Source: a virus. From it: a DNA stretch of 64,000 nucleotides. The DNA lies in IMG/VR virus record IMGVR_UViG_3300019850_000208, positions 1 to 64,000 of that record. One strand, written 5' to 3'. Below are positions 11,130-32,013 of this stretch, one piece after another. Both the position numbers and the translations under genes were made by a program. Each line of letters opens with the position of its first letter. Position 1 is the first letter of the stretch. The notes beneath the pieces are model-generated. The model ran no database searches, was not told where the DNA came from, and saw only the letters and a list, made by a program, of their open reading frames with translations.

Positions 11130-11375
11130 ATGAAAATATTTTATTTAATTAATCCCGGGCCTTTGAAAGCTTTCAGGGCGTATGCGTTTATATATTTAGG
11201 TTCAGGCTCTAATGAACAGGGAAGCTATGTCGATGGTGAATACGTTGGAATAACAGAGAAAGAGAGAACAAAACATTTTATAAAAGCAAAGATACCTCGT
11301 TCAGACTTTGAGCGCCATTTCAAAACTGGAACAAAAGAAATCTTTGTACAAAAGTTATTTGAGGCATATGCGTGA
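11130..11375 (+). CDS. Small family protein A (81 aa)
   Basis: One of a run of short proteins at 11130-12060 and 12860-13381 with shared ends. It begins MKIFYLINPGP and ends FVQKLFEAYA. Its neighbours start MKYYIITNVG or MKISVITNPG and end IKKIFEASQ or IVQILFDAFG. It probably arose by tandem duplication. No signal or catalytic motif is visible and the function is unknown. It follows the neck-like gene by 3 bp and the next gene's GTG overlaps its stop. Confidence 0.55.
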   Translation: MKIFYLINPGPLKAFRAYAFIYLGSGSNEQGSYVDGEYVGITEKERTKHFIKAKIPRSDFERHFKTGTKEIFVQKLFEAYA

Positions 11376-11728
11376 AATATTATATTATTACAAACGTAGG
11401 CAATTATTATCCGAGAATTCATATGGTAGAAGAGTTTATGGCGAGACTGAAACCGGAAAGTTGGCAACTTCTTAAAAGATATCCAATTGTGACGCGAGTA
11501 ATACCGGCCGGCTCAATCGCGGAAAAATCGAGTATTTTTAGGGTTTTAATTAAAAAAGACGAATTGATCCTTAAGAATGAAGGGACAGCATTCGGTAAAA
11601 TAATAGATAAACATATCTATCTCTTGTTTGATAAGATAAACAAAGAAAATATTTTTGTATCCACAGAGGGTTTAAAAAAAGTCAATAAACAGGAGCATAT
11701 CAAAAAGATATTTGAGGCATCACAATGA
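11372..11728 (+). CDS. Small family protein B (118 aa)
   Basis: Starts with GTG at 11372, overlapping the previous TGA (GTGA). N-terminus MKYYIITNVGNYYPR and C-terminus HIKKIFEAS place it in the same family as its neighbours. The middle is basic with a KDELILKNEG.. stretch. It is fused to the next gene by an ATGA-type overlap at 11725. Unknown function. Confidence 0.55.
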   Translation: MKYYIITNVGNYYPRIHMVEEFMARLKPESWQLLKRYPIVTRVIPAGSIAEKSSIFRVLIKKDELILKNEGTAFGKIIDKHIYLLFDKINKENIFVSTEGLKKVNKQEHIKKIFEASQ

Positions 11729-12060
11729 AAATATCCGTTATAACTAATCCTGGCAGTAATTTTCCGAATCTCCACACCATGCCATCTTTTTTAAAAGATT
11801 TGCCTCCTATCGCCAAAGAGAAGCTCCGGCACGTCTCAAATAATAAAGTAAAAAGTAAATACATCAATAATTGGTTCACACCTTTTCAAATTATAGACCA
11901 GCTGAAACATCCAGATCCGTACTATTCTGGCGGCGATATTCCCGTTTCCGTTCTGTATAATCCTACAGACGAACAGGTGTATATTATAGACAGACCAAGA
12001 GTATTTGATAGCAAACAAGAATATTTGTTGGCACTTTTTGCTCATCTAGCACAAAGATAA
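11725..12060 (+). CDS. Small family protein C (111 aa)
   Basis: N-terminus MKISVITNPGSNFP and the hydrophobic C-terminal YLLALFAHLAQ match the family pattern seen in its neighbours. The middle contains a PDPYYSGGDIPVS loop. It is the last member of this first block. The end overlaps an AAAGATAAT element that may serve the next gene. Unknown function. Confidence 0.55.
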   Translation: MKISVITNPGSNFPNLHTMPSFLKDLPPIAKEKLRHVSNNKVKSKYINNWFTPFQIIDQLKHPDPYYSGGDIPVSVLYNPTDEQVYIIDRPRVFDSKQEYLLALFAHLAQR

Positions 12061-14470: not shown

Positions 14471-15751
14471 ATGTCAAATACTCGTATCAATATAGAAAAC
14501 CAGACCAATGCAACGGAATTCGATGCCCAGGTAGAGGATGCTATAGTTGGATCTAATTTTATTGACAATAAGTTTGATCCTATATCAGGTCACAATCACA
14601 ATGGTGTAAATTCAAAATATATAGACTGGACAGATATTAATAATAAACCTGGTTCATTCACGCCGAGCATTCATGCTCATGGAACAGTCAGTTCTCCTGG
14701 ACTTCATACTCCAATGGGCCCGGATGATCACCATAGTTCTGTTGAATCCGGCTTGAGTATTATTCCAGATAATGTAACCGTATCTGGCGGAGCCGGCAGC
14801 TATCTGGAGCTCCCGGATGGAACTTATATAAGGTTGGGCGATACCACGCAGGGTGTCAGGATTGAATATGATAGTGGATTAAACAAATTAACTGTTAAAA
14901 ATTGGGGAACTAGCCCATCTGGATTTCATATATTAAATACTATTAATGATTTCACGATTGAGTCTCCTAATATTAATATAGGTTCAACTTCTTCCAATAT
15001 CTATTTTCAAACAGCTATTCTTAATGCAACAAACTGGGGCATATTAGGAAGTGGCGCCGCTGCATTTCTATCATTAAATGGAGTAACTATTGGCACCTCT
15101 GGAATTGCGAATGTAAGCTATTTTAATGGTGTTGAGATTACAGCCGGTGGAACTCACAGCAAACTTCAAGTCGGCAACGATAGCTTTCAAATACATCATT
15201 CCACGCATCAGCAAAATACTGATACTGGTACCACTGACTCTACTTTTACTATAAAAAGTGGAGGTAATCATTTCATCCTTTCATCTAATGATTATCAGGC
15301 ACCTTCCAATTCTGAAAGCGCGCTATACAATGATATTAGTTCAGAAAAAGCATTAGTTATAGCTGGCAACTCATCCAGTGGGTTCAAAACAGTGAGAATA
15401 AAGGATAACCTGATTGTAGAAGGTCAAACTTTGACCCAAGGAAATAAATCTGTTGCTACTTACGGCACTACTGCAGGCCTAACAATACAAGACTTTGCGA
15501 CCGGTTCTCCAGGATATATAGTATTAGGACATGCTGTAATTCAATGGGGGACCAATACTGTCAGCGGTACTTCATGGAGCACTATATCATTTGCGAAATC
15601 CTATAATGTCGCACCTTCTATTTCAGCTTCCTGCGCAGATTCATCAGGCGTAACATGGAAAACACGTAATATAACAACGAGTCAATTCGAAATACAGGCA
15701 ATTGGCTCTTCAAGCGCAAGCCTGTCGTGGATAGCGGTGGGCCAAGGATAA
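14471..15751 (+). CDS. Tail fibre protein
   Basis: 426 residues. N-terminus MSNTRINIENQTNATEFDAQVEDAI belongs to the N-terminal family described under 32976-34328 (compare SFETKVETAV there). The body is Gly/Ser/Thr/Asn-rich with beta-strand repeats. An ISGHNHNGVNSKYIDW segment near the start matches a fibre repeat seen in other phages, and HAHG, HHS stretches may bind metal. The C-terminus ends in SASLSWIAVGQG. It is a fibre encoded in the opposite direction to the main fibre cluster, so it may act at another site of the particle. Confidence 0.8.
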   Translation: MSNTRINIENQTNATEFDAQVEDAIVGSNFIDNKFDPISGHNHNGVNSKYIDWTDINNKPGSFTPSIHAHGTVSSPGLHTPMGPDDHHSSVESGLSIIPDNVTVSGGAGSYLELPDGTYIRLGDTTQGVRIEYDSGLNKLTVKNWGTSPSGFHILNTINDFTIESPNINIGSTSSNIYFQTAILNATNWGILGSGAAAFLSLNGVTIGTSGIANVSYFNGVEITAGGTHSKLQVGNDSFQIHHSTHQQNTDTGTTDSTFTIKSGGNHFILSSNDYQAPSNSESALYNDISSEKALVIAGNSSSGFKTVRIKDNLIVEGQTLTQGNKSVATYGTTAGLTIQDFATGSPGYIVLGHAVIQWGTNTVSGTSWSTISFAKSYNVAPSISASCADSSGVTWKTRNITTSQFEIQAIGSSSASLSWIAVGQG

Positions 15752-16171: not shown

Positions 16172-16250
16172 CCGATGCTAGATGCGCATTGTGCTTGTAT
16201 GAATCGGATAAAACTGGTTTCATTACATATTTAATTTGAAAAGAGATAAC

Positions 16251-16886
16251 ATGACATTTATAGTGTGCGCAACAGGTCCCTCTGTGGATAATTTAAATTG
16301 GGATCAATTAATAAAATATAAGACCATTGGCGTTAATCAATTTTTCAGAAAAAATATTCCTACCGATTATTATTACATATATGATAAGATGTGTATTATA
16401 CGCGAAGATCCCAACTTCACAACGGTAATAGATAAATGGCCCAACACTACATTTTATATTGATAAAAGAGTGCCGATGCCAGCCCATTTCAGAAAGAACG
16501 CAAATATTGTGAAAGTAACATCCAAATCAATTAGACGTGAAGAAATCAATAACATGAATTTGTGGGCCAATTCAATAGAAGATACTATTTATATGCACAA
16601 AAGCAGCGTGATTGGGGCGATTAATATAGCATATATATTAAAAGCCACTAAAATATACATAGCTGGAATGGATGGCTATGGCGGGTATTTTTATCCACAC
16701 TCAAAAAATAAATTTGAGAACAGATTACATGATTCATTAGTTCATTATCCACGGTATGGAAATGTCAGCTTGAGCCTGAAGGCAATTCAAAGCTTTCTAT
16801 CGGCGCAAAACGTGTTTTTGTATAATATGAATCCAGAAAGTTATTTCGTTAAAAATAATATTACAGAATTTGGGATGCCCGAGTGA
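16251..16886 (+). CDS. DUF115/GT42-like protein (sialyltransferase-related fold)
   Basis: Start at the ATG at 16251, 7 bp after an AAAAGAGA site. FIVCATGPSV near the start is the glycine-rich loop of the DUF115 and GT42 (Cst-II-like) proteins. Later IYIAGMDGYGG matches their conserved GxD segment, which binds the nucleotide sugar. GT42 enzymes use CMP-sialic acid; DUF115 proteins in flagellar loci are related. It opens the glycan locus, with NeuB at the other end. Its paralog lies at 23005-23703. The activity is inferred from fold and context. Confidence 0.65.
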   Translation: MTFIVCATGPSVDNLNWDQLIKYKTIGVNQFFRKNIPTDYYYIYDKMCIIREDPNFTTVIDKWPNTTFYIDKRVPMPAHFRKNANIVKVTSKSIRREEINNMNLWANSIEDTIYMHKSSVIGAINIAYILKATKIYIAGMDGYGGYFYPHSKNKFENRLHDSLVHYPRYGNVSLSLKAIQSFLSAQNVFLYNMNPESYFVKNNITEFGMPE

Positions 16887-17887
16887 ATATAATACATATG
16901 TCCAGGACGGCTGTGGCTGGAGTGGCCTACCGTTATGCTCAGTTCTTTAATAAATACTCTGATATAAAAGCCAGAAGCGCTATGGCAATACCCACCAATA
17001 TAAAATTTCCTGAAGATATAAAGGTCCCATTTAAATACAATCCCAAATTCCCTGGAGCGGCCAATAGAGCCATAATATTAGATTCGGAAGAATTTATAGA
17101 AGAAATTAGAAAGGCCGATATTGTGCATATGCATAATTCGCCGCCTTTGAATACAAATAGTGTGGCCTGGGATATAATTAAAAACAAGACAGTGGTTTTG
17201 CAGCTGCATAGCCCACCGAACATTTCTAACTATGCCTATGAGCTTGTGAGCAAAAAAGTTTCTATAAATAAGTTGCTTGTGATTGCGCAATATCAATACG
17301 TAGAATTAAAACCGATATATCCGGATATAATTCCCATCAGAAACATAGTGGATATAAATAATGAGTTGTTTCTGCCGATTATAAAAGCCAATACACCTCC
17401 AATAATAACATACGCTCCAAGTAATAAAATAATGAACAATAAGAAAGCCGGCTGGGTATATAAAAGCTTCAAGGAAGTCGAACCATTGCTGAATAAGCTT
17501 AATAAAGAAAATGTTTGTAGATATGTATCCCAAGGTTATAGACCTTTTGAGGAAAACTTAAAGATAAGGCAACCGGCGAATATTCATATTGATGAAGTTA
17601 GTAGTGGTTCTTTTCATTTGAGTTCGCTTGAAGCTCTTTCTCAGGGAAAAGCTACAATCGCCAATATTGCATCATGGATGGAAAACGTAATAAAAGAAGT
17701 TACTGGTTGCGATGAAATCCCTTGGGTAGTTAGTGATGCATCCAATTTAAGAAAAACTATTATTGAATTATGCAAAGACCAAGATAATTTATTAAATATA
17801 CAGAAAAAGTCCAGGGAATGGATGGAAATATATTGGAATCCTGAAGCGATATTAGAAAACTACATGGAGGTATATAAATCATTATGA
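16883..17887 (+). CDS. GT4-type glycosyltransferase
   Basis: 334 residues, GTG start overlapping the previous stop (GTGA). N-terminal Rossmann segment starts MNIIHMSRTAVAGVAYR. VHMHNSPP appears at about residues 79-86. The C-terminal half has FHLSSLEALSQGKATIA, the ExxxxxxxE-type region of GT-B retaining enzymes, though shortened. Family members move a sugar from a nucleotide donor to lipid, glycan or protein. It is followed by a GT2 gene whose ATG overlaps the stop. The acceptor is unknown. Confidence 0.75.
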   Translation: MNIIHMSRTAVAGVAYRYAQFFNKYSDIKARSAMAIPTNIKFPEDIKVPFKYNPKFPGAANRAIILDSEEFIEEIRKADIVHMHNSPPLNTNSVAWDIIKNKTVVLQLHSPPNISNYAYELVSKKVSINKLLVIAQYQYVELKPIYPDIIPIRNIVDINNELFLPIIKANTPPIITYAPSNKIMNNKKAGWVYKSFKEVEPLLNKLNKENVCRYVSQGYRPFEENLKIRQPANIHIDEVSSGSFHLSSLEALSQGKATIANIASWMENVIKEVTGCDEIPWVVSDASNLRKTIIELCKDQDNLLNIQKKSREWMEIYWNPEAILENYMEVYKSL

Positions 17888-18672
17888 TATCGATTTGTAT
17901 AACTTTAAAAAATAGAGCAGAATTATTAAATAGAAAATTACTTAATATATATAATTCTAATTTTGATAATAAAAAAATAGAAATTTGTATTTCAGACGGT
18001 AATTCTACTGATAATTTAATTGAAATAATTAAGAAGTGGTATGAAAAATTTTATCAAATAAAATATGTAACTAGTGATAGATCAAAATTACCCTTTAAAA
18101 TAAAAACAAATAATCCAACTTGTGATTGGAATTCTCTAGTATCCAATTTACCTAGTTTTAATAAAATAATATTAAGTGATCCAGAAGTATTGTTTTCTGA
18201 TTCAGACCAATTAAAATGGATTTATAGTAAGCTTGATAATGATATTTGCATATGGCACTCCTCATTCTTAATGAAAAAAGGGTATGAGTATCAAGATTTT
18301 AGTGATGAATATAAAAATAAAAATAATATAGAACAATATGCTAGAGGTACATCTGGTAGATGTATGGCTTTTCTAAAACCTACTTTTATAGAAAATAGAG
18401 GATTTGAGGAAAAATTTGCCATTGGCTTTGCTGGAGAAGATAATTATTTTATAGAAAGATTTAAAACACAAAAAAAAGAATTAAGATCACCTTATGCTAC
18501 CATACATTTATGGCATACTACTTATGTAACAGAAGAAAATTTAAAAATAAGAAATGAATATACCATGCCTCTGTTAAGAAAATTAAGAAAAACATATCCT
18601 ATTCCAAATGAAAATAATCCTGATTGGAAAAGGCCGGAAATGCTAAGTAATTTCAAAATATATAAGGAATAA
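17884..18672 (+). CDS. GT2-type glycosyltransferase
   Basis: 262 residues. Opening ISICITLKNRAELL.. and CISDGNSTDN are the nucleotide-binding part of GT-A family 2 enzymes. GFAGEDNYFIERF near residue 175 is the typical GxxxEDxxF acceptor-side motif. A SDPEVLFSDSDQ stretch may act as metal-binding loop in place of a clean DxD. The DNA is strongly AT-biased, as across 17884-21507, so this is where the low-GC island starts. ATG overlaps the previous stop. Confidence 0.75.
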   Translation: MISICITLKNRAELLNRKLLNIYNSNFDNKKIEICISDGNSTDNLIEIIKKWYEKFYQIKYVTSDRSKLPFKIKTNNPTCDWNSLVSNLPSFNKIILSDPEVLFSDSDQLKWIYSKLDNDICIWHSSFLMKKGYEYQDFSDEYKNKNNIEQYARGTSGRCMAFLKPTFIENRGFEEKFAIGFAGEDNYFIERFKTQKKELRSPYATIHLWHTTYVTEENLKIRNEYTMPLLRKLRKTYPIPNENNPDWKRPEMLSNFKIYKE

Positions 18673-18676
18673 AAAT

Positions 18677-18775
18677 GTGAAAACAAATTTAACTATTCAT
18701 TCAGTAATCAGAAATGGACCTTTTATTTATTATTCAATAAAGTCGGTTTATAATATTTTATCAAGAGGTTTTTAA
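18677..18775 (+). pseudogene. 32-aa remnant of a glycosyltransferase N-terminus
   Basis: A GTG-started frame of 32 codons reads KTNLTIHSVIRNGPFIYYSIKSV.., which looks like the first part of a GT2 enzyme (xTIHSVIRNG..xxYxIxSV) and then stops at 18775. The next gene starts at the following base. It is either the leftover of a deleted glycosyltransferase or a short leader that couples translation. The resemblance is by eye. Confidence 0.35.
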
Positions 18776-19774
18776 ATGGATAATAAAATCAATATAGACA
18801 AATTATTAATAAATAGATCAGATCTCACTTTGTCACTAGGATTAGCGGGTTTACCTATTGCACAAATGACTACTCATGTACCTTATTTTGAAAATATAAA
18901 AAAGAAAATATATTCAAAAAATTATGCTTATTATACAATATTAAATAAATCGCAACCCGAAAAACTTACAACTAAAAATGAATATAATATTAGTTTATTT
19001 AATAAAATTAAAAATGAAGGTGTTGATATAATTAATCCCATAACTGGTTTTCCATTACATACAAAAACAGAAATATACGGCGGTCACCATAGAGCCGTTT
19101 GTGCTTATTTAAATAATATAAAAGAAATTCCTATTGAATATAAGAATTTAGAATTATTTAATAATACAAATGCACAATCAATACAAAAAGCATATTTTGA
19201 AGCAACTAAGACAGAGGCAATAAGAAAAGGATGCTCATATAATCCTGTACCTGGTTTGAAACCTATTAGAAAAGGTATTGATAGAATAAAAATGATATAT
19301 GAAGATATAGTAGATTGTAGAGGAAAAGAATTAATTGATTTAGGATGTAATGATGGTTATTTTGGAATTTTTTTTGGACAACATGCTTTTAATATAACAT
19401 TTGTTGAAAGAAGTCCTGCTTATTCAAATATAGTAAAAAAGAAATTAGAAACATTAAATATGGGAGCAAAATTATATACATGCTCAATATTTGATTATTT
19501 AAAAAAATATGATAAAAAATTTGATGTAATTATTTACTTAGATGTTTTTTATCATACTGTTGTAGAAAAAGGGCTAGATTATTCTCTTAAAGAATTGGAG
19601 AAAATTATTAATATAGGAAAAAAAATATTTATTGCGCCTGGTAGATGGGATAAACTACAACTTACTGAGAAAGATTTATTTGAATGGGTTTTAAATAAAA
19701 ATAAACGATTAAGATATATAGGAAGAGACGATGATGGAAAAAATTATGAAAGAGAAATCTATTGTATTGAATAA
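18776..19774 (+). CDS. ParB-like domain fused to SAM-dependent methyltransferase
   Basis: 332 residues. GGHHRAVCAYLNNIKEIPIEY (102-122) is the ParB/sulfiredoxin-like signature GxHRxxAxxxxG..xIPV. The second half has ELIDLGCNDGYFGIFF (185-200), the SAM-binding glycine loop, then a VIIYLDVFYHTV segment matching motif IV. ParB-like domains at the N-terminus of phage or surface-polysaccharide enzymes are seen elsewhere, and may be CTP-binding or kinase-like. Pairing with a methyltransferase suggests modification of a phosphorylated or nucleotide-linked acceptor. It is inside the AT-rich island. Confidence 0.75.
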   Translation: MDNKINIDKLLINRSDLTLSLGLAGLPIAQMTTHVPYFENIKKKIYSKNYAYYTILNKSQPEKLTTKNEYNISLFNKIKNEGVDIINPITGFPLHTKTEIYGGHHRAVCAYLNNIKEIPIEYKNLELFNNTNAQSIQKAYFEATKTEAIRKGCSYNPVPGLKPIRKGIDRIKMIYEDIVDCRGKELIDLGCNDGYFGIFFGQHAFNITFVERSPAYSNIVKKKLETLNMGAKLYTCSIFDYLKKYDKKFDVIIYLDVFYHTVVEKGLDYSLKELEKIINIGKKIFIAPGRWDKLQLTEKDLFEWVLNKNKRLRYIGRDDDGKNYEREIYCIE

Positions 19775-20318
19775 CAACGATAAGAAAAAAAAGATAAAAG
19801 AAATAATAGATAAATTATCAGAGTATAATTCTATTTTGGATATAGGGTGTGGTGAAGGCAATATACTAAATCAAATAAAGTCTCCTATGAAGATAGGAAT
19901 AGATATATTTAGACCAATACTAGAAAAAAATAAATATAAAAAAAATATTGTTTTTATTAACTATGATTTGAAAAAAAGGTTAGGAAAATTATTTTTATCA
20001 AATTTTTTTGACTGTACTTTTGGATTTGATATTATAGAGCACTTTGATAAGAAAGATGCTATAAATCTTATAAAGGATTGTGAAGAAATCACAAGTAAAT
20101 TTATCTTATTTTTTATACCGGTAGGTAATCATCCTCAAACTAAAGATGATAGAGGATATGGAAATGATTATTATCAAACACATAGAAGTACATGGTATCC
20201 AAAAGAAATGATTGATTTAGATTATGAAGTAGATTTTTATCCAAACTGGCATAATCAAAAAGGAAAAGATAGTGGTGCTATGTTTTGTTATAAGGAAATT
20301 AAAAATGAGGTAAAATAA
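19731..20318 (+). CDS. SAM-dependent class I methyltransferase
   Basis: 195 residues. SILDIGCGEGN (about 34-44) is motif I and FGFDIIEHFDK (about 93-103) is motif IV, both typical of Methyltransf_11/23-type enzymes. It overlaps the previous gene by 44 bp; an alternative ATG at 19746 would shorten this. Its last 56 bases are part of a 61-bp tandem duplication, whose second copy now separates it from the radical SAM gene. Probably acts in the glycan pathway. Confidence 0.8.
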   Translation: MMEKIMKEKSIVLNNNDKKKKIKEIIDKLSEYNSILDIGCGEGNILNQIKSPMKIGIDIFRPILEKNKYKKNIVFINYDLKKRLGKLFLSNFFDCTFGFDIIEHFDKKDAINLIKDCEEITSKFILFFIPVGNHPQTKDDRGYGNDYYQTHRSTWYPKEMIDLDYEVDFYPNWHNQKGKDSGAMFCYKEIKNEVK

Positions 20319-20387
20319 AAAATGAAAAGATAGTGGTGCTATGTTTTGTTATAAGGAAATTAAAAATGAGGTAAAATAAAAAATGAA
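20263..20387 (+). repeat. 61-bp tandem duplication at a gene junction
   Basis: 20263-20323 and 20324-20384 are identical copies, with the match running on for three more bases. The unit covers the last 19 codons of the methyltransferase and the first codons of the downstream start. The first copy's ATG at 20322 now reads only MKR before a stop, while the second copy's ATG at 20383 opens the radical SAM gene. Confidence 0.95.
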
Positions 20388-21507
20388 TAATGATAATATT
20401 TGGTCTAATCCATATAATCCATTTCAAAAATTTAAGATACTTGCTTGGTATGATCGAATGAAAAGTATTCAAAAAGGGGAATATCAAGCACCTGTTAATA
20501 TTGCTCTTGATATTTGTCAAGGTACAAAAGATCATAAGTTATGTGGTGGATTTAATTGTAATTTTTGTATGAGTAATCTTGAGGATGTAGGTAAAATATC
20601 TTATATTCCAGAAAAGATTTTATTAGAAATTCCTAAATTTTATTCTGAATGGGGTGTAAAATCAATTTGTTTAGCCGGTAATAATTCAGATCCATTAATG
20701 TATAAACATTCTACTTTAATTAAATTTCTTGAATTATGTAAGAAATGGAATGTTGAAGTTGGATTTGTTTCTAATGGAGCATTTTACACACAGAAATTAC
20801 TTGAAGTGGTAGCAGAAACTTGTAAGTGGAGTGGGTGGAGTGTTAATGCTAGTACTGCAAAAACTCATTCAATATTGACAGGGATGCCAGAAAAAACTTT
20901 TCATAAAATTATTTCTAATATAGAAAAGATGCATGATTACATAGAAAAGAAAAATCTTAACCATGATATTGGGTATAAGTATTTAATAACAAATGAAAAT
21001 TATAATGAAATTTTTGTTGGAGTAAAATTGGCTAGTTCAATCGGAGTGAGGCATTTTCAGATAAGGCCATGCGAATTACCTGAGTGGCGTAGAAAAAAAA
21101 TAAATGTAAAAGTAGTAGAAAGACAAATTAAGAAAGCATTAAAACTTGAAAGGCCTGGTGAGTTTGAAGTATTTGGTATTAGAGAAAAATTTAAAGTTGA
21201 TTTTTCCAAGAAACCACCAAAGAGATGTATTGCAAGTCCACTAGGTTCAACTTGGAAAGCTGATGGTGATATTGTAATTTGTCCGGATAGGAGATGGTCG
21301 GCACATCAACCAGATATGACATTAGGTAATTTTATTAAAGATGGACTTCCAGCTATTATAAAAAAATGGAATGGTATTGAGCATAAAAAAATGATAGCCG
21401 CGGCGAATAAACATATTAATGAATGTATTAGGTGTACATCCTATAGTTGGCATGAAATTTATGAGGAATGTGTAGCTAAGGATTCACTTGATATTACATT
21501 AATATAG
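20383..21507 (+). CDS. Radical SAM/SPASM-type protein with an unusual cluster spacing
   Basis: 374 residues. The cluster motif is CX4CX2C (C54, C59, C62 in CGGFNCNFC) rather than the common CX3CX2C, with a further Cys at 45. An AGNNSDP loop follows as in the family. The C-terminus has a Cys near CIASPLG, CPDRRW and CIRCTSYSWHEIYEEC, which looks like a SPASM or twitch domain for auxiliary clusters. It resembles phage and bacterial radical SAM proteins linked to surface modification. It is the last gene of the AT-rich island, with a plausible role in making an unusual sugar or side chain. Confidence 0.8.
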   Translation: MNNDNIWSNPYNPFQKFKILAWYDRMKSIQKGEYQAPVNIALDICQGTKDHKLCGGFNCNFCMSNLEDVGKISYIPEKILLEIPKFYSEWGVKSICLAGNNSDPLMYKHSTLIKFLELCKKWNVEVGFVSNGAFYTQKLLEVVAETCKWSGWSVNASTAKTHSILTGMPEKTFHKIISNIEKMHDYIEKKNLNHDIGYKYLITNENYNEIFVGVKLASSIGVRHFQIRPCELPEWRRKKINVKVVERQIKKALKLERPGEFEVFGIREKFKVDFSKKPPKRCIASPLGSTWKADGDIVICPDRRWSAHQPDMTLGNFIKDGLPAIIKKWNGIEHKKMIAAANKHINECIRCTSYSWHEIYEECVAKDSLDITLI

Positions 21508-21530
21508 GGAAGGAAATGGAGGCATGATAA

Positions 21531-22067
21531 ATGGCAAAAAAAATATTATTCACACATATCCCTAGAACCGGCGGGACAACAATTAAAAGATTGCTTAAAG
21601 GAAAGATAACTTTTCTTAAGGATCATACTGGCTTTGATGAAATACCGCTACAACAGTATAATAATTATTTCAAAGTGGCTTTTGTAAGAAACCCGTGGGA
21701 AAGATATCTGTCTATGTATATTGAGAATAGTATTGGCCACATTTTCAGAGCGGAACCATTTGAATGGATCTCTTTTGATAACTATATATATGATTTGTCT
21801 AATACTTTTATGAAAAAAAGGCAACTAGAATTTATATCTTTTGATGGCCAAATAGTGGCAGATTTCATTGGAAGATATGAGAACTATGAGAAAGATTTTT
21901 ATAAGCTATGTGAAATAGCAGGCATAAAAAACGTAGAGCTCAACTTGAAATTGCGTTATAATGGCGATTATAATTACAGGAAGTTCTACAATAATGACAC
22001 TAGGGAATTTGTAGCAAAATATGCTAAGCGAGATATAGAATATTTTAACTATAAATTTGGGGAATAG
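21531..22067 (+). CDS. Small sulfotransferase family protein (second copy)
   Basis: 178 residues, starting after a TGGAGG site. HIPRTGGTT (residues 9-17) and FVRNPWER are the PAPS-binding motifs. It is the paralog of 344-883 with the same length and layout. It lies directly before APS kinase and an HxGH nucleotidyltransferase, so three consecutive genes could activate sulfate and transfer it. The acceptor is likely a sugar made in the same locus. GC content here returns to the level of the rest of the phage. Confidence 0.85.
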   Translation: MAKKILFTHIPRTGGTTIKRLLKGKITFLKDHTGFDEIPLQQYNNYFKVAFVRNPWERYLSMYIENSIGHIFRAEPFEWISFDNYIYDLSNTFMKKRQLEFISFDGQIVADFIGRYENYEKDFYKLCEIAGIKNVELNLKLRYNGDYNYRKFYNNDTREFVAKYAKRDIEYFNYKFGE

Positions 22068-22068
22068 T

Positions 22069-22605
22069 ATGGCCCATGTTCTATGGTTTACCGGATTGTC
22101 AGGTTCAGGCAAAAGCACTCTTGCAAATAGAATAAAAAAACACTTTCCAAAATATGTACTGCTAGATGGTGATGTCTTGAGGAAAGGTTTGTGTAATGAT
22201 TTGGGTTTTTCCATAGAAGACCGTGAAGAAAATATGCGGCGTCTGATTGAATTGTGCAAAATATTTATTGCTAATGACATAAGTGTAATAACGGCTTTTA
22301 TTTCTCCATTTAATGATGCTAGGAAGCTTGCCAAAAAAGAAATAGAAAAACTTGGCGGAAAATGTTATATTATATGGTGTAAATGTCCTCTTGCCGCATG
22401 CCAGAAGAGAGATCCAAAAGGATTATATCTCAAGGTTGCAAAAGGAGAGATAGAGAACTTTACAGGCGTAACCAGCCCTTATGAACCGCCATCTGCTCCA
22501 TATATGAAAGCAGACATAACTATTAATACCGCAGAATTAGATATAGATGTTTCTACTAATGAAATAATTAGGTTTTTGATAGGAGAACAAGATGTACTTT
22601 ACTAA
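22069..22605 (+). CDS. cysC: Adenylylsulfate (APS) kinase
   Basis: 178 residues from the ATG at 22069, right after the sulfotransferase stop; an alternative TTG 12 bp earlier is less likely. Walker A is GLSGSGKST (9-17), followed by LLDGDVLRKGL. The family's CxRDPKGLYxKA segment is present (CPLAAC..RDPKGLYLK), then GEIENFTGVTSPYEPP. The enzyme phosphorylates APS at the 3' hydroxyl to give PAPS, the donor of the sulfotransferase. Overlaps the next gene by 14 bp. Residue spacing matches bacterial CysC throughout. Confidence 0.95.
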   Translation: MAHVLWFTGLSGSGKSTLANRIKKHFPKYVLLDGDVLRKGLCNDLGFSIEDREENMRRLIELCKIFIANDISVITAFISPFNDARKLAKKEIEKLGGKCYIIWCKCPLAACQKRDPKGLYLKVAKGEIENFTGVTSPYEPPSAPYMKADITINTAELDIDVSTNEIIRFLIGEQDVLY

Positions 22606-23008
22606 TGCTGAGCCACAAGAACCACATGTGGCTTTTATAGGCCGATGGGCTCCACTGCACAAGGGACATACATATATAATGATGGAGATGATGAAAAAGA
22701 GGCATCTTCCTTTATTAATATTGGTTAGAAATACTACTTTTGATGAAATAAATGCCAATATCCGAGCCGAGTTGGTTAAGATGTGGATGATAGCTGAAGG
22801 TATAAAAGGAACAATAATGATAATCCCCGATATAGAGGGAATATATTATGGCCGCGGCGTAGGTTATAATATAGAGGAAATAAAGCCATCAGAAAATATA
22901 ACGGCCATCTCAGCAACAGAAATAAGAAAAAGAATGGCAAATAATGATAATTCATGGAAAGAGCTTGTTGCTAATGGAACAGCTGAATTTTTGGAATCAA
23001 CATTATGA
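22592..23008 (+). CDS. HxGH nucleotidyltransferase, possible ATP sulfurylase substitute
   Basis: 138 residues. FIGRWAPLHKGHTYI (about 16-30) is the HxGH motif of the cytidylyltransferase-like superfamily, and AISATEIRKRM near the C-terminus is the ISxTxIR motif that binds the triphosphate. The same pair is found in NadM/NMNAT, PPAT and, in modified form, ATP sulfurylase. Because the gene overlaps APS kinase and follows the sulfotransferase, the best guess is that it makes APS from ATP and sulfate. Role as an NMN adenylyltransferase cannot be excluded. Strong AGGAG site. The mechanism class is sure, the substrate inferred. Confidence 0.6.
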   Translation: MYFTNAEPQEPHVAFIGRWAPLHKGHTYIMMEMMKKRHLPLLILVRNTTFDEINANIRAELVKMWMIAEGIKGTIMIIPDIEGIYYGRGVGYNIEEIKPSENITAISATEIRKRMANNDNSWKELVANGTAEFLESTL

Positions 23009-23703
23009 GTAGATTTTATATACTTGCGACCGGGCCGTCTATTAATAAGATAAAAGAAAAGGAATGGGAATTTCTTAAAAAGCAGAATACCATGGGAATT
23101 TCGTGGTTTGCCAAATACGGTTCTTTCCAGCCAAAATATTATTATTTTCACGAGAGCAATCAACGAAAAACAATGCACAAAATACTGGCTGATTTCAAAC
23201 AGACTTTTTTCATAACTACAAAAAATCATAAATTGCCGTCAGATGCCATACGGGAAAAGAGATATCAATATATTACTCACACTCCATTCAAGGAAGCATT
23301 TAAAGGCAAGATATGGTATAATGACGAACCTGAGCCTCCAGCATCTTTTGCAAAAGTGTGGGCAAAGGATTTCAGTCAACAACTTTTGGGTTTCAGAGGA
23401 ACTTTAATTGCCGCAATGAATGCTGCTTCAATTTTGGGTGCCGATGAGCTTTTTTTATGTGGCGTGGATTTAAGAGATAACAGGCATTTTTACCAAAATG
23501 AGGAAAGCAATTTATTTAATGATGGCCTTAAAAATAAAGGCATAAAATTAAAAACACATTCTTCAGCGGTATCCTTTGACAATATCAGAACAGTATTAGA
23601 CTGTTTGAGATGGTTAAGTAAGTATCTTACTATTTACGTGACCAATAAAAAAAGCTTACTGTACAAAAAGAAAATACTAAAATATAGGCCCATAATATGC
23701 TAG
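23005..23703 (+). CDS. DUF115/GT42-like protein (second copy)
   Basis: 232 residues. ILATGPSINKI at the start and LGADELFLCGVDLRDNRHFY later are the DUF115/GT42 glycine loop and GxD motifs seen in the paralog at 16251-16886. The ATG overlaps the previous stop by 4 bp, and the next gene's start overlaps its end. It may be a sialyltransferase or another nucleotide-sugar enzyme using the NeuB product. A conserved His in the HFY segment follows the GVD motif, as in that family. Confidence 0.65.
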   Translation: MSRFYILATGPSINKIKEKEWEFLKKQNTMGISWFAKYGSFQPKYYYFHESNQRKTMHKILADFKQTFFITTKNHKLPSDAIREKRYQYITHTPFKEAFKGKIWYNDEPEPPASFAKVWAKDFSQQLLGFRGTLIAAMNAASILGADELFLCGVDLRDNRHFYQNEESNLFNDGLKNKGIKLKTHSSAVSFDNIRTVLDCLRWLSKYLTIYVTNKKSLLYKKKILKYRPIIC

Positions 23704-24587
23704 ATGTTTTACTGCTGACACATAACAATCTTAAAACATTAAATAAATGTCTTGATGCTCTGAGCGATCATACAGACGCTAAATATAGAATATTTATATT
23801 CGATAATGGCTCTACAGATAAAAAGTTTCTTGAATATCTAGATAGTATAACCGACCGGAAAATACATATATCAAAAAATGAAAGTAATATAGGAATAGGG
23901 CCCGGGAGAAGAATTTTATCCAATCTTGCGGATGGAAATTACTTGATGTTTTTAGATTCGGATATGATAGTGACATCTAAATGGGACTATTATATGAAAA
24001 GAGTAATGGATAAACAGGATGCTGATGCGGTTTCTGCGCGATTTAGGAAAGGAACAAGTGATTATATTCAGGCCAATGGCGGATATTATTACGTTAAAAA
24101 AAAGAAATATATTTATATAGAACATTATGATGAAGGCAAAGAAGCAGGATCTCCGGCAGTAATAAGAAAATGTACATGGCTCCCAGGCGGCGTTATGATG
24201 ATATCTAAAGAAGTCAATGATAAAGTTAAATACCTTTCTTTCGGGTATAAAATTGGTTTTGAGGATATAGATTTTTCATTCCAAATGCGAAACGCCGGGT
24301 TTAGACTCTATAGTTGTCCATTTACTGATTTTCGTCATTTGCATCTCGAGAAAGAATCCGGTTATGCTCAGGTGCGTAAAGACAAAGTCGAGTTGCTTTT
24401 GTCTATCGCTCTTTTTACGGAGCGCTGGCTATTAAATCCAATTCGTAGCTGGACAGTAGATAATTTTTTGTTCAAGAAAAGATTAACGGATGCCGAAATA
24501 GACAAATTAATTCGGTGGGTGATCCAGAATCGAGATAACCGAGAGCTTATAGAAACAAGAATAATGCGCATAAGAGGCGCTAGATGA
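23697..24587 (+). CDS. GT2-type glycosyltransferase
   Basis: 296 residues. DVLLLTHNN and IFIFDNGSTDKK at the start, FLDSDMIV (the DxD motif) and IGFEDIDFSFQMRNAGF are the family-2 GT-A features. The remaining C-terminal part is helical and may bind the acceptor. It overlaps its neighbours by 7 and 4 bp, so the group 23005-26361 is one transcription unit. Confidence 0.82.
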   Translation: MLDVLLLTHNNLKTLNKCLDALSDHTDAKYRIFIFDNGSTDKKFLEYLDSITDRKIHISKNESNIGIGPGRRILSNLADGNYLMFLDSDMIVTSKWDYYMKRVMDKQDADAVSARFRKGTSDYIQANGGYYYVKKKKYIYIEHYDEGKEAGSPAVIRKCTWLPGGVMMISKEVNDKVKYLSFGYKIGFEDIDFSFQMRNAGFRLYSCPFTDFRHLHLEKESGYAQVRKDKVELLLSIALFTERWLLNPIRSWTVDNFLFKKRLTDAEIDKLIRWVIQNRDNRELIETRIMRIRGAR

Positions 24588-25264
24588 CCATTGATGAATA
24601 CTTTGACAGAATATTTGTTATTAATCTAGATCATCGGAAGGATAAATGGCAGTTGGTGACCAAGAATTTGGATAACATGAATATTACAAATTATGAAAGG
24701 TTTTCTGCCATCAAACCAGATTATAATGATATATCTCCCGAATACAAAGCATGGTTTAGCTCCAAAAATCATTCCGATGGTCCTGACGAAACTTATACAG
24801 TGGGTGCCATGGGATGCAAGATGAGTCATTTGAGGGTTATCAATATTGCGAAAAACCGAGGATATGATAAAGTTCTAATACTGGAGGATGATGTAGAATT
24901 TAGGCAGGATGCTCAAAAATTGTTTGATATGGCAGTGGCCCAATTAGAAGGCCTGCCACCCTGGGATATGTTGTATTTTACCGGAAATCATGGAAGACGC
25001 TATGATAAAGTTTCCAACAATATTATTAGAATCCACGGAAGTCATTCTACAGTTGGATATGCTGTGCACTCGCGTGTATTCAAAACGATTGTAGAGAATG
25101 GACCAAAATATTACAAACACATAGATGTGTTTTATAAGGATAAGATTCATCCATTCTATAATTGCTATTGCATAACTCCGCACATCGTATGGAACATGGA
25201 TGGATATAGCGATATTGAGCAAGGATTTCGTGAGTATAGGGTTTTGAAAAGAAGGTATATATAA
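24584..25264 (+). CDS. GT25-type LPS glycosyltransferase
   Basis: 226 residues. FDRIFVINLDHRKDKW near the start, MGCKMSHLRVI and VLILEDDVEF (the DxD-like motif) are typical of the LPS/Lex2B-type GT25 family, which adds galactose or glucose to lipooligosaccharide. It is unusual for a phage to carry one; acting on host LPS is one option. ATGA and TAATGA-type overlaps join it to both neighbours. Confidence 0.85.
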   Translation: MTIDEYFDRIFVINLDHRKDKWQLVTKNLDNMNITNYERFSAIKPDYNDISPEYKAWFSSKNHSDGPDETYTVGAMGCKMSHLRVINIAKNRGYDKVLILEDDVEFRQDAQKLFDMAVAQLEGLPPWDMLYFTGNHGRRYDKVSNNIIRIHGSHSTVGYAVHSRVFKTIVENGPKYYKHIDVFYKDKIHPFYNCYCITPHIVWNMDGYSDIEQGFREYRVLKRRYI

Positions 25265-26361
25265 TGAGAGTTGCTATAATTATATTGACACACAATCGTG
25301 CCGATAAATTGAAAAAACTGTTGCAGACAATCAGCAATAGTACAAAAGAAGCCCACTCTATCTATATCCTTGATAATGGCAGCACGTTGGAATATAATAC
25401 ATTTAATGAGATTGATGATAAATATGATTTAAATTTTTTTAGAAGTACGGATAATTGGTATCCAAGCAAAGCCAGAAATTATCTCTTTAGCAAACTTGAA
25501 AATGAAGAGTTTGTAGTCACATTGGATGACGATATGATGGTGACTGATGGATGGTTAACTGAATTATTGAAATTAGTTCAAACAAGTGATAAGTGCGCAG
25601 GTGTATCACCACGAATCCTTCAAGAGAATAAAAATAAGATACATAGCCAGGGTGGATTTTATACGATATCTGATAATTATTTTATAATATTTCAGGAGTA
25701 TTATAGAATGCAAACGCCTCAGAGAAATGAGAATTCAGTTCTCAAGTGCGATTGGCTTGCTTCCGGCTGCTCACTCTATCCCAGAAAAATAATTGACGAA
25801 TTTAGATATGATGAAAACATGCCATGCATGGAAGATCCTTTGCATTCATATGAAATTAAAAAGGCTGGTTATGATTTGTATAGCACATCCAAATCTGTAG
25901 TTATCCATTCGGCCGGCAAGACTGCCAATGTCGCAATGCGCTCTAATGATAATCTTATAAAAGGTATATGCTACTTTCATCAAAAGACCGGTCTCAATCC
26001 AATAAAAAGTTGGTCAATGCACACCAGGCTCATGCGCGGTAAAACTATAACACACGAAACAATAGATCTTTGGTTGCATTACAATAAGGTTAAATTATCC
26101 ATGGTCAATGGGAATTTACATGATATAAAGACCAAAATGAACAATGCGAATAGACACATCAAGCCTATAAATAGCACACCAGCCAATTTCAATAGGAAAG
26201 TTAAGTCAAAACCAGCCATAGAGGTTGATATGAAACATCTGCCACTATCTCAAAGAAGAAATCCAAAGGCGGCTTATAAGCCTGGTTCGAATTCTATAAA
26301 TGATAGACCCAGAAAAAAGCCATTTCCAGCAAGATATGAATATCTAAAGAGAAATCAATGA
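25264..26361 (+). CDS. GT2-type glycosyltransferase with C-terminal extension
   Basis: 365 residues. AIIILTHNRADKL and ILDNGSTLEY at the start, then VTLDDDMMV is the DxD motif. A CMEDPLHSYEIKKAGYDLY segment matches the usual ED acceptor motif. About 100 residues after the catalytic domain are polar and Asn/Lys/Pro-rich with no known fold. It follows the GT25 gene by overlap and precedes another GT2-like gene by overlap. Confidence 0.8.
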   Translation: MRVAIIILTHNRADKLKKLLQTISNSTKEAHSIYILDNGSTLEYNTFNEIDDKYDLNFFRSTDNWYPSKARNYLFSKLENEEFVVTLDDDMMVTDGWLTELLKLVQTSDKCAGVSPRILQENKNKIHSQGGFYTISDNYFIIFQEYYRMQTPQRNENSVLKCDWLASGCSLYPRKIIDEFRYDENMPCMEDPLHSYEIKKAGYDLYSTSKSVVIHSAGKTANVAMRSNDNLIKGICYFHQKTGLNPIKSWSMHTRLMRGKTITHETIDLWLHYNKVKLSMVNGNLHDIKTKMNNANRHIKPINSTPANFNRKVKSKPAIEVDMKHLPLSQRRNPKAAYKPGSNSINDRPRKKPFPARYEYLKRNQ

Positions 26362-27167
26362 AAATAAGTATTATTATACCATATCGCGATCGTAGGAGAT
26401 CTATATATTTTCTTATTAAGGAGTTCCAGAAGCAGCAAGGTTTTCTCCAGGGCAATATGGAAATTATTATTGTAAATCTCGGAAGCTCCAAGGTATTGGA
26501 CAAGCACAAGGCACCAAATTTGCACGAAATTAATATAGATTATGATGGCATTTTCTCACGTGGCTATTGCTGTAATGTTGGAGCGAAGAAGGCAAAATAT
26601 GATATTATATGGTTTGTTGATGCGGATTGCGTGCCTCATGTCAGATTGTTAGAATATATTAATTCCAATTTTGACATGAACAATCCTAATTTTGCTATTA
26701 ATGTGCCGGTCATGTTTCTAAATGAGCAGGCTACGGAAAGTATCATAAATAGTGATTACTCCTGGGAGGATTACATTAAATATAAAAATGATCCTCATCT
26801 CTGGCTCAAACCCCGTATAGATGGAACAAGTCAGGTGTGCATGTTTAAAAGAAACTTCATTGAATTGGGCGGCTATGACGAGACGTTTATAGGTCATGGT
26901 GCTGAGGACTTGTTAATACACGATCAAATTGCCAAATTGCTTCCTAATTATTGGGGTCAATGGCCAAAGACAATAGAGGTAAAATGGTCGATAGAAAGAG
27001 ATTTAATTCTTACACATCTATATCATGGAAAGAGAAATTATCATACTCCCTATATGTCCAATTACAGAAAGAACTGGAATATGTACAAAGCTAAAATTAG
27101 TAGCAATATTATGCGCAATAACAGTGGAAGAGAATGGGGATTAATCGAAAAACCACCAATTAAATAA
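26358..27167 (+). CDS. GT2/GT27-type glycosyltransferase
   Basis: 269 residues. ISIIIPYRDRR at the start and WFVDADCVPH (the DxD motif) are the donor-binding part. GGYDETFIGHGAEDLLI is the GGxDExFxGxGxED motif of galactosyltransferase-type C-terminal domains. This fits transfer of Gal or GalNAc. It is the last glycosyltransferase before the 71-bp gap and neuB. Confidence 0.82.
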   Translation: MKISIIIPYRDRRRSIYFLIKEFQKQQGFLQGNMEIIIVNLGSSKVLDKHKAPNLHEINIDYDGIFSRGYCCNVGAKKAKYDIIWFVDADCVPHVRLLEYINSNFDMNNPNFAINVPVMFLNEQATESIINSDYSWEDYIKYKNDPHLWLKPRIDGTSQVCMFKRNFIELGGYDETFIGHGAEDLLIHDQIAKLLPNYWGQWPKTIEVKWSIERDLILTHLYHGKRNYHTPYMSNYRKNWNMYKAKISSNIMRNNSGREWGLIEKPPIK

Positions 27168-27238
27168 TTTTTTTGTTATAAAAAACGCTACCAATATAAG
27201 CGCCCGCTTGTAGATATTAATATATGAGGGGTGCTAAT

Positions 27239-28072
27239 ATGGTAACAGAAATCATTGCTGAAATAGGATGTAATCATCAGGGCAACTTTGAGACTGCGAA
27301 AGAAATGATCAAGGCTGCCTATTTTTGTAAAGTCTCAATGGTCAAATCTCAAAAACGTACGGTTAAAGAATATTTAACTCCGGAACAATACGAAAGGCCT
27401 TATGATAATCCGCATTCATTCGGAGCGACATATGGCCAGCATCGCGAAGCACTCGAGTTTAGTGCGGATCAGCACAAGAAGTTAATGAGATATGCTAAAC
27501 ATATGGGCATAACTTATTTTGTGAGTGTATGGGATGTCACAGCTGCAAAAGAGATGAATGAAATAGGTATTCCGATAATAAAGATCCCGTCTGCCTGTCT
27601 CACAGATGATGATCTCCTGGAAGAAGTTAAAAGTTTTGGTAAGCCCATATATATGAGTACAGGCATGTCTACTATCAAAGAAATAGATCATGCTGTAGAA
27701 ATTCTTTATGGAACAGATCTTACATTATTCCATTGTACGAGTTGTTATCCATGTCGGTTCGAAGATGTATACTTAAAGAATATTACATTTCTTCGCGAAA
27801 GGTACTCCCTACCAGTGGGACTATCAGGTCATCACTTGGGAATCGCTATAGATTTAGCCGCGGCTATGATTGGCGCTACAAAAATAGAAAGGCATTTTAC
27901 ATTGGACCGCACAATGAAGGGAACAGATCATGCGGCAAGCCTGGAACCGCAAGGCCTGCAAAAACTGGTGAGAGATTTAAAAGCTGTGCAAATTTCATTG
28001 AAGTTTTGGTCTAGGGATAAGATAGTGCCGTGCGAAAAACCAAGTTGGGAAAAGTTGAGAATGGTAAAGTAA
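27239..28072 (+). CDS. neuB: N-acetylneuraminate-type synthase (NeuB), catalytic domain only
   Basis: 277 residues from the ATG at 27239, chosen because a GAGGGG site precedes it. EIGCNHQGNF, the KSQKRT loop, IKIPSACLTDDDLL, GMSTIKEI and GLSGHHLGIA match NeuB/PseI/NeuB-like enzymes. They condense phosphoenolpyruvate with ManNAc or a related sugar. The usual C-terminal antifreeze-like SAF domain (about 60 residues) is absent. Such short forms occur, and may still be active. Its product could feed the DUF115/GT42-like proteins, though a CMP-sialate synthetase is not seen here. It closes the glycan locus. Confidence 0.9.
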   Translation: MVTEIIAEIGCNHQGNFETAKEMIKAAYFCKVSMVKSQKRTVKEYLTPEQYERPYDNPHSFGATYGQHREALEFSADQHKKLMRYAKHMGITYFVSVWDVTAAKEMNEIGIPIIKIPSACLTDDDLLEEVKSFGKPIYMSTGMSTIKEIDHAVEILYGTDLTLFHCTSCYPCRFEDVYLKNITFLRERYSLPVGLSGHHLGIAIDLAAAMIGATKIERHFTLDRTMKGTDHAASLEPQGLQKLVRDLKAVQISLKFWSRDKIVPCEKPSWEKLRMVK

Positions 28073-28439: not shown

Positions 28440-28601
28440 TCAATGCCGCTTCTTTTTAAATGTTGACTTCTTGACGTCTTGCAATTCCATAATCTGTATT
28501 ATGATATTTAAAGCCTCGACGACATCATCGAGGCTTTTTTTCATTTCATTCTGATTGCGTAAAAGCCTTGTTAAAGCTTTGGTTAAAGTGTCCTTGTTCA
28601 T
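28440..28601 (-). CDS. Small coiled-coil protein, 53 aa
   Basis: Short gene of 53 codons, 5 bp after the preceding gene and 9 bp before the holin-like gene. It reads as an amphipathic helix (NKDTLTKALTRLLRN.., SLDDVVEALNIIIQIM), with a very basic C-terminal tail. The tight fit between neighbours supports it. Its middle contains the rightward terminator stem described at 28511-28541. Confidence 0.6.
   Translation of the reverse strand: MNKDTLTKALTRLLRNQNEMKKSLDDVVEALNIIIQIMELQDVKKSTFKKKRH
28511..28541 (+). terminator. Rightward terminator embedded in an opposing gene
   Basis: Stem AAGCCTCGA (28511-28519) pairs with TCGAGGCTT (28528-28536), with an 8-base loop, and seven T residues end at 28541. 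It would stop the glycan-locus transcript, whose last gene ends at 28072, after about 450 bases of antisense RNA. It has no T-run on the reverse strand, so it should not block the leftward unit. Confidence 0.75.
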
Positions 28602-30747: not shown

Positions 30748-32013
30748 ATGGGTACAAGAATTAACTTAGATTACCAGGTTGATAATTCACAATTTGATGA
30801 TAAAATTAAAAATAACATCAAGGCCCCGGGCGGCGGCACTTCAAGCTTGGAAGTTGTCAACGCCGATGGTGATACCATGACAGGAGAGCTAAAAGGGCCG
30901 CAGTTTACATTAAACAGTATTTATAGTGCAGATACGGCTACTATATATGGCAGCTATGCGGGCCCCGATTCTACAATGTATATTAGATTTGGGAATGATG
31001 TTAGTGATAAATTAGAAATAGAGTATTGGAATGGTTCCAGTGCAGATACCATCATCTCCATAAGAGGCGATAAAGACTTTACGCAAAATGCGAAGGACTA
31101 TACGCTTAATGCGTCGCATGATGTCACATTTGATGTTAATAATGATTTGTTACTGGATGTGGATACTTCTATTACATTAGATTCACCAACAATTGATTTT
31201 AATTCATCCGGAACGCTAACGGCCGATATAGATAGTAATATAATTTTAGATTCTCCTTCGATTGATATTAAGAATGGTAGTAATGTTATCCAACTGCACA
31301 CTGCTGATGCTGAGATAAATACCTCAGGCAGCATAACACTGGACACCAGTTCAATTAACTTGATTCAAGGAAATAATAGAATTAGAGTGATCGCCGGAAA
31401 ATGGCAATTCACCAATAACAACAGTGATTGGTTCGATTTTCAGACAACACTTCCAATCGGGACAGTTCTTATGTATAATGGCACCGGAATTGCTGATGCC
31501 GATATACGCACAGAGGATATAGGTGAGCGTGGTGGAGACACTATTGGAAAGATGCCCGGCTGGAGGGTTTGCAATGGCAATGCCAGCACTCCTAATCTTT
31601 TCAATAGGTTTATTCGGTCTGAAAATGCAAGTGGGAATATAGGTGGTTCGGATGATGCAATAGTGGTAAGTCATCACCATACAATAAATCATACACATTC
31701 TACCAGTTATGCAACAAGTAGCCATGTGCATGGCTCTTCAAATATGTATGCTGATGTACATTTTGATGCAGCAAATTATATTAGATGGATAGCCAGGGGT
31801 TCTTTTACTTCAACGAGTCATTATGCTTGTGATATTTGGCATGCAGGTGGAGATGCAACTGCTAGTGGTGTTGCTATTAGTGGTAATACCAATGGCCCTA
31901 ACAGTTATAGTCAACCAGCTTATGCTGGTGATTCTGGCGATATAGGAAGTAGTGGAACCGGAGCAAATAAGCCAGCATATTATAGTTTGATATTTATTGT
32001 TAGGATGAGTTAA
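30748..32013 (+). CDS. Tail-collar-domain fibre protein
   Basis: 421 residues. N-terminus MGTRINLDYQVDNSQFDDKIKNNIK has the attachment-like pattern seen in other fibres here. The middle is a Gly/Asp-rich beta region with LDVDTSITLDSP-type repeats. The C-terminal domain is a phage tail collar: LPIGTVLMYNGTG.., VCNGNASTPNLFNRF, HHTINHTH, and ends with ANKPAYYSLIFIVRMS. The same block occurs at 48716-49246 and 52548-53126. It is the only one encoded rightward, opposite to its relatives. A strong AAGAGGG site precedes the ATG. Confidence 0.85.
   Translation: MGTRINLDYQVDNSQFDDKIKNNIKAPGGGTSSLEVVNADGDTMTGELKGPQFTLNSIYSADTATIYGSYAGPDSTMYIRFGNDVSDKLEIEYWNGSSADTIISIRGDKDFTQNAKDYTLNASHDVTFDVNNDLLLDVDTSITLDSPTIDFNSSGTLTADIDSNIILDSPSIDIKNGSNVIQLHTADAEINTSGSITLDTSSINLIQGNNRIRVIAGKWQFTNNNSDWFDFQTTLPIGTVLMYNGTGIADADIRTEDIGERGGDTIGKMPGWRVCNGNASTPNLFNRFIRSENASGNIGGSDDAIVVSHHHTINHTHSTSYATSSHVHGSSNMYADVHFDAANYIRWIARGSFTSTSHYACDIWHAGGDATASGVAISGNTNGPNSYSQPAYAGDSGDIGSSGTGANKPAYYSLIFIVRMS

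Follow-up and report, generated by a model that had tools for sequence, protein, structure and literature searches.

The window analysed here is the first 64 kb (64,000 nucleotides) of the IMG/VR record IMGVR_UViG_3300019850_000208, a linear virus sequence of 108,574 bases. It contains an operon of 15 co-directional open reading frames (ORFs) on the + strand (16236-28072), which we interpret as a phage-encoded system for making and attaching a sulfated glycan with an acidic nonulosonate, most likely of the KDN (2-keto-3-deoxynonulosonic acid) type; we give this interpretation a probability of about 0.55. The ORFs are intact and tightly coupled, with junctions ranging from -44 to +103 bases; 11 of the 14 junctions overlap or are separated by no more than 23 bases. 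Gene families were assigned with Pfam, PHROGs, and NCBIfam; for the two DUF115/GT42-like proteins, the assignment comes from profile iteration, fold prediction, and profile matches to the PDB. An earlier sequence-only reading had described a single-direction, closely spaced locus with two DUF115/GT42-like proteins, one GT4, four GT2/GT27-type, and one GT25 glycosyltransferase (GT), two methyltransferases, a radical SAM (S-adenosylmethionine) protein, sulfation genes, and NeuB. This inventory and its arrangement were confirmed, with the GT4 assignment being weak.

The NeuB-family synthase (27224-28072, + strand, 282 aa) is the last gene of the operon; the next gene is convergent, at 28095. The protein matches the NeuB TIM-barrel (PF03102) above cut-off (E 8.8e-74), but the alignment stops before the SAF (antifreeze-like) C-terminal domain, which is absent. 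All of the residues that bind phosphoenolpyruvate (PEP) and metal (E25, K53, K129, S132, S154, H215, H236, and D247 in the numbering of Neisseria NeuB, as for E134) are kept in the alignment. In synthases that use N-acetylmannosamine (ManNAc), this substrate is contacted by the SAF domain and by an acidic side chain, E134 in the Neisseria enzyme. The E134 position is occupied by Cys in the window synthase and mostly by C, M, S, or L in its clade, while E or D was found in all six SAF-type synthases compared. The best named NCBIfam models, NeuB_NnaB and PseI, were both under their equivalog cut-offs (TIGR03569, 229.9 of 399.65 bits; TIGR03586, 175.4 of 340.25 bits). Judged by its sequence, the enzyme is not a standard sialic-acid synthase. 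Because the two ManNAc-contacting elements are lost, no NeuC is encoded in the record, and bacterial relatives have a KDN-9-phosphatase-like partner, the predicted product is most likely a KDN-type acid rather than an ordinary sialic acid. The earlier proposal of sialic-acid-type synthesis is thus kept in part: a sulfated glycan bearing a nonulosonic-type acid is still the best reading, but the term sialic-acid-type calls for revision, given a synthase without two features of ManNAc-using NeuB and a bacterial clade associated with KDN-9-phosphatase-like domains.

Relatives were found with an alignment of three phage synthases; when the synthase or the APS (adenosine 5′-phosphosulfate) kinase was used as a single query against viral contigs, nothing was found. 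The SAF-less synthase is encoded in at least 275 IMG/VR stretches and at least 545 bacterial or archaeal stretches. Neighborhoods were studied for the best 80 of each, and counts are given over 81 viral and 79 bacterial loci. Nearly all relatives studied are about 270-320 aa long, and hence lack SAF. A cytidylyltransferase gene (CTP_transf_3) was located within five genes of the synthase in 60 of the 81 viral and 74 of the 79 bacterial loci. GT42-like genes were located at the same distance in 47/81 viral loci, a count that may include some drift, since iterated profiles were run on the same loci to build the GT42-like set. Both were enriched among near relative to distant genes of the viral loci (CTP_transf_3, p 8e-11; GT42-like, p 1.4e-7). 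On a 170-kb viral contig (L093/L213), the synthase, a cytidylyltransferase, two GT42-like genes, a CysC-like gene, and a nucleotidyltransferase are found within about 6 kb. In 66 of the 79 bacterial loci, cytidylyltransferase and a HAD domain form one fused protein. In the two bacterial proteins scanned, the best NCBIfam model for this domain was the KDN-9-phosphatase of B. thetaiotaomicron (NF058599, cut-off 180 bits), with 172.6 bits in one and 138.6 in the other. The same Bacteroides genomes also have SAF-type synthases at separate sites, in one case beside NeuC; when B. faecis was examined for a SAF-containing KDN locus, a NeuC-linked synthase was found instead. A tree made with a quick method and midpoint rooting placed the window synthase among bacterial members together with three other viral ones (SH-aLRT 97, 75 rows), apart from the main viral branch (73 viral rows), which suggests an acquisition of its own.

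Other genes were seen beside SAF-less synthases in viruses. The huge phage LR756508 (L022) encodes a GT29 sialyltransferase (11247-11879; PF00777, E 1.6e-26) directly before its SAF-less NeuB, and three further ORFs after NeuB (13978, 14642, and 15319) look alike by eye. Small HAD-like ORFs (about 95-105 aa) with a VDIDET motif are present a few genes from the synthase in some 16 viral loci (for example, L093:9376-9678, L066:9699-9995, and L041:604-891).

The putative nonulosonate transferases are the two DUF115/GT42-like proteins, A (16236-16886, + strand, 216 aa, with a TTG start at 16236 or an ATG at 16251) and B (23005-23703, + strand, 232 aa). Pfam results for them were weak or blank (MptE-like, E 0.0038, for A), but the two proteins find each other at about E 1e-6 (A to B, E 8e-7), and iterated hidden Markov models (HMMs) bring both into one family of more than 120 members from synthase-bearing loci. 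Some members match CST-I sialyltransferase and MptE-like models, and a 21-member family profile that includes protein A has matches to CstII (E 1.5e-14) and to MptE (E 3.5e-5). Fold evidence covers protein B. Its AlphaFold2 model (pLDDT 74.8, pTM 0.78) has CstII as the top and sole Foldseek match under E 0.001 (E 7.2e-5), and its VIA-align scores were Z 13.4 for Maf (5mu5; 172 residues aligned, 3.1 A), 10.8 for MptE, and 10.4 for CstII. A His column common to both proteins lies near the place expected for CstII H188, where the model of B is of low confidence. Together, profiles and predicted fold make membership of the GT42/Maf superfamily well supported, and the original assignment is strengthened accordingly. 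Sialyltransferase-like enzymes take CMP-sugar donors, so the presence of GT42-like genes fits a CMP-activated acid.

Sulfation is represented by a carbohydrate-type sulfotransferase (21531-22067, + strand; Sulfotransfer_2, 38.3 bits, cut-off 22; phrog_3347 galactose-3-O-sulfotransferase, E 1.6e-16) and an APS kinase (CysC; 22057-22605, + strand). The latter is matched over its full length and above cut-off by TIGR00455 (173 bits, cut-off 138.7) and NF003013 (173 bits, cut-off 163), and aligns with the APS-kinase domain of human PAPSS1 at E 1.3e-34. Both assignments are solid. A second sulfotransferase is encoded outside the operon (344-883, + strand; Sulfotransfer_2, 41.5 bits, cut-off 22); it belongs to the same family as the 21531 protein and possibly acts in the same pathway. 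The gene at 22592-23008 (+ strand) encodes a small HIGH-superfamily nucleotidyltransferase, the family profile of which matches nicotinamide mononucleotide adenylyltransferase (NMNAT) at E 1.5e-8. A role as ATP sulfurylase was considered and rejected (PF01747, 23.4 bits, cut-off 24.3; the profile favors NMNAT). The structure model of this protein was poor (pTM 0.51) and had no fold match reaching E 0.001. Among 73 viral loci with such a nucleotidyltransferase (L202-L274), an APS-kinase-like (CysC-like) gene is found directly or closely upstream in 66, and because of this recurrent neighbor the small protein probably belongs with a sulfation-type module. A sulfotransferase-like cluster was found nearby in 22 and a DUF2061-like cluster in 23 of the 73 loci, one member of each cluster having been checked by Pfam.

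Activation of the acid is the step for which the record holds no gene. As the sequence-only reading had noted, a CMP-sialate synthetase is not seen, and in a search of all 108,574 bases for neuA, neuC, and nucleotide-sugar genes, none of CTP_transf_3, Epimerase_2 (NeuC), or NAD-epimerase (PF01370) was detected. The absence of NeuC fits a KDN-type product. The record does not cover the whole genome: its baseplate block has counterparts, with protein identities of about 45-75%, on two near-identical sister contigs in IMG/VR (82 and 131 kb), and these run beyond its end. Both carry CTP_transf_3 over cut-off, and one also has a GT42-like gene. Because the sister phages carry a cytidylyltransferase, that of the window phage may lie in its unassembled part, or it may be supplied by the host. 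Host supply, one of two alternatives in the earlier reading (the other being a pathway that ends at another sugar), is therefore not forced, although it is still one option.

Several observations weigh against a KDN-type pathway encoded by the phage. Cytidylyltransferase and NAD-epimerase are missing, and no KDN-9-phosphatase was found in the 108-kb record either; a HAD partner was present in 2 of the 81 viral loci. The two bacterial HAD domains scanned miss the KDN-9-phosphatase cut-off but pass that of the KdsC subfamily, and the cytidylyltransferase of the sister phages looks like KdsB, so that an eight-carbon, Kdo (3-deoxy-D-manno-oct-2-ulosonic acid)-like product is possible. Promoter-like matches at the operon were not above chance in our scans. 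The same was true of terminator-like matches, and a strong stem-loop past the operon end (28510-28537) was the sole notable site.

If the operon is expressed, we propose that the synthase would condense PEP with a phosphorylated or free hexose to an acidic 3-deoxy-2-ulosonic acid, most likely KDN-type and not N-acetylneuraminic acid (Neu5Ac). A cytidylyltransferase from outside the record, encoded by the host or by phage sequence that was not assembled, would activate it with CMP, and one or both of the GT42/Maf-like transferases would place it onto a glycan or straight onto Ser/Thr of a protein. The remaining chain would be the work of the five GT2/GT25 enzymes and the GT4-like enzyme. The phage APS kinase would supply 3′-phosphoadenosine 5′-phosphosulfate (PAPS), with which the sulfotransferase would sulfate the glycan, and methylation may be added by the two methyltransferases. 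Either a phage virion protein, since the operon adjoins a tail-fiber-like gene, or the host surface would be the target. The analysis shows which genes are present and in what order, their families, the fold predicted for one GT42-like protein, the missing SAF domain and acidic residue, and the associations across loci; substrate, product, sequence of reactions, target, and expression are inferred.

Two targets have to be weighed, and each can be proposed only tentatively. The glycan may be put on the host surface during infection and block superinfection or alter recognition, as has been proposed for lipopolysaccharide (LPS) and capsule clusters of cyanophages. This is the published reading of P-SSM2-type clusters (PMC7824862; PMC9602691), and the many GTs and the sulfation genes suit polysaccharide modification. 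However, a polysaccharide polymerase, a flippase, and a lipid-carrier initiating transferase were not recognized among the 15 ORFs; the operon sits in a run of virion genes, after a fiber-like gene and before lysis genes; and its presumed late expression would give little time to change the host. Alternatively, the GT42/Maf-like enzymes may be protein O-glycosyltransferases that modify the tail fibers or baseplate of the phage itself, a possibility that we hold with similar reserve. The closest solved fold is that of Maf, a flagellin glycosyltransferase, a tail-fiber-like gene (14471-15751, with a weak Gp53-like C-terminus) precedes the operon, and fiber genes are numerous across the record. 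On the other hand, CstII, which acts on oligosaccharides, is the better match by sequence, the acceptor does not follow from a common fold, and gene neighborhood is weak evidence of a target. We lean slightly toward decoration of protein or virion on account of the fiber neighborhood, a fold like that of Maf, and the absence of any recognized polymerase or flippase; published readings of similar clusters favor the host surface, and both targets are kept near equal. A fully specified version, in which a sulfated KDN-type glycan is attached to the phage's own tail fibers by Maf/GT42-type enzymes and alters adsorption or shields the particle, is rather unlikely.

It is improbable that the enzyme is instead a synthase of the ordinary kind for Neu5Ac, legionaminic acid, or pseudaminic acid, with the host providing the amino-sugar precursor and the CMP activation. 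Such a function would agree with the identity of the best named models and with the conserved PEP and metal residues, but those models are missed by a wide score difference, the SAF domain and acidic residue are gone, no NeuC-like gene is found in the record, and the bacterial clade adjoins KDN-9-phosphatase-like domains, with SAF-type synthases standing apart from it in the same Bacteroides genomes. That the operon is decayed or silent cargo with no product, as its mosaic composition and the lack of a cytidylyltransferase in the record might suggest, is highly improbable given 15 intact, tightly coupled frames and the conserved catalytic residues checked in the synthase.

The other genes of the operon, all on the + strand, are as follows. 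The GT4-like glycosyltransferase (16883-17887) was recognized weakly (Glyco_transf_4, E 0.046; BshA model, E 3.1e-6 over residues 239-333). The four GT2 enzymes were all above Pfam cut-off: 17884-18672 (PF00535, E 1.7e-8), 23697-24587 (PF00535, E 1.1e-16), 25264-26361 (PF00535, E 3.9e-16), and 26358-27167 (PF10111, E 1.9e-23), the last with weak similarity to GT7/chondroitin transferases. A GT25 enzyme is encoded at 24584-25264 (PF01755, E 8.8e-15). SAM methyltransferases are encoded at 18776-19774 (PF13489, E 1.5e-6 over residues 182-260, with an extra N-terminal part) and 19731-20318 (PF13649, E 3.9e-6), and a radical SAM protein at 20383-21507 (PF04055, E 7.6e-8; the models W_rSAM_matur and viperin did not reach cut-off). 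In composition the operon is mosaic, because the first GT2 gene, the two methyltransferase genes, and the radical SAM gene form an AT-rich block of four genes inside it (17884-21507), with a GC content of 24-30% (24% in each of the first three) and 10-17% at third codon positions (GC3; 0.14 in the GT2 gene), versus 36.6% GC for the record. This block is likely a separate acquisition. A second radical SAM gene of the window lies at 2816-3697 on the - strand.

The carrier of the operon is a tailed phage. Since the operon is flanked by a head-tail adaptor and the tail-fiber-like gene on one side and by holin/endolysin genes on the other, it is phage cargo and not host contamination. The remainder of the record consists of baseplate and tail-fiber-type genes, with a few others at its end. 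Both sister contigs end near the fiber region, as if it were variable or hard to assemble. No match to the locus was found by megablast against phage records, and a baseplate protein of the phage had no cyanophage match. By eye, the fiber-type genes at 30748-32013, 48716-49246, and 52548-53126 share a similar stretch (VGVILMYxGTGIADxxxRTEDIG). Among the fiber genes, 34515-36527 encodes a protein of 670 aa that contains three stretches of DUF7487 and a part with weak likeness to Vsr/endonucleases. The gene at 6233-7504 has the look, by eye only, of an RtcB-type RNA ligase. Three genes of one sister contig (G002, L014; 8868-9896, 11169-12272, and 12633-14210), for two ABC permeases of the peptide type and a double ABC ATPase that carries oligo_HPY, resemble an Opp/Yej-like transporter, which is very unusual for a phage.

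The sequence-only reading held that few phages have such a set. This is true of annotated records, where the synthase was matched by two phage records and one bacterial contig, but not of environmental viruses, given the number of stretches that encode it. Glycan loci of this sort are already known in phages, and the core enzymes are common to many environmental phages. A limited literature search for phage nonulosonate or sulfation clusters found nothing relevant, which is not evidence of absence. If our interpretation is correct, many uncultivated phages encode their own acidic-sugar synthase, linked to sialyltransferase-like enzymes; a KDN-type acid replaces sialic acid as the likely product, made by loci that are common in viromes. 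It would also offer a testable route to phage glycosylation of the virion or host surface, and make small single-domain synthases and GT42-type transferases available for study.

Large glycan clusters have been published for cyanophages and jumbo phages (PMC7824862; S-SCSM1 in PMC9602691), and those of the P-SSM2 type have been interpreted as modifying host LPS or capsule. The window phage resembles them in being a large phage with a compact cluster of glycosyltransferases from several families, HIGH-superfamily nucleotidyltransferases, and methyltransferases. It differs from them in having no NAD-epimerases in the record and in its additional genes, which encode a nonulosonate synthase, a pair of GT42-like transferases, and a set of sulfation proteins. 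Environmental SAF-less NeuB loci, Marine virus AG-345-L05, and huge phage LR756508 share the synthase subfamily, GT42- or GT29-type sialyltransferase-like genes, GT25, and, in some, sulfotransferases; unlike the window operon, most of the environmental loci have a cytidylyltransferase nearby, and the window synthase belongs to a mainly bacterial branch. In the KDN pathway of B. thetaiotaomicron (BT1713-1715, of which BT1714, Q8A711, is the characterized KDN-9-phosphate synthase), condensation of mannose 6-phosphate with PEP is followed by dephosphorylation and then CMP transfer (PMC6200933). The predicted phage pathway is similar in its PEP-condensing synthase, a CMP-activated nine-carbon acid without N-acetyl, and the phosphatase-type partner of its bacterial relatives, whereas phosphatase and cytidylyltransferase are absent from the 108-kb record. 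Finally, the phage DUF115-like proteins share a family profile and, for the 23005 protein, a fold with Maf flagellin glycosyltransferases and CstII (GT42), but are short, single-domain phage forms.

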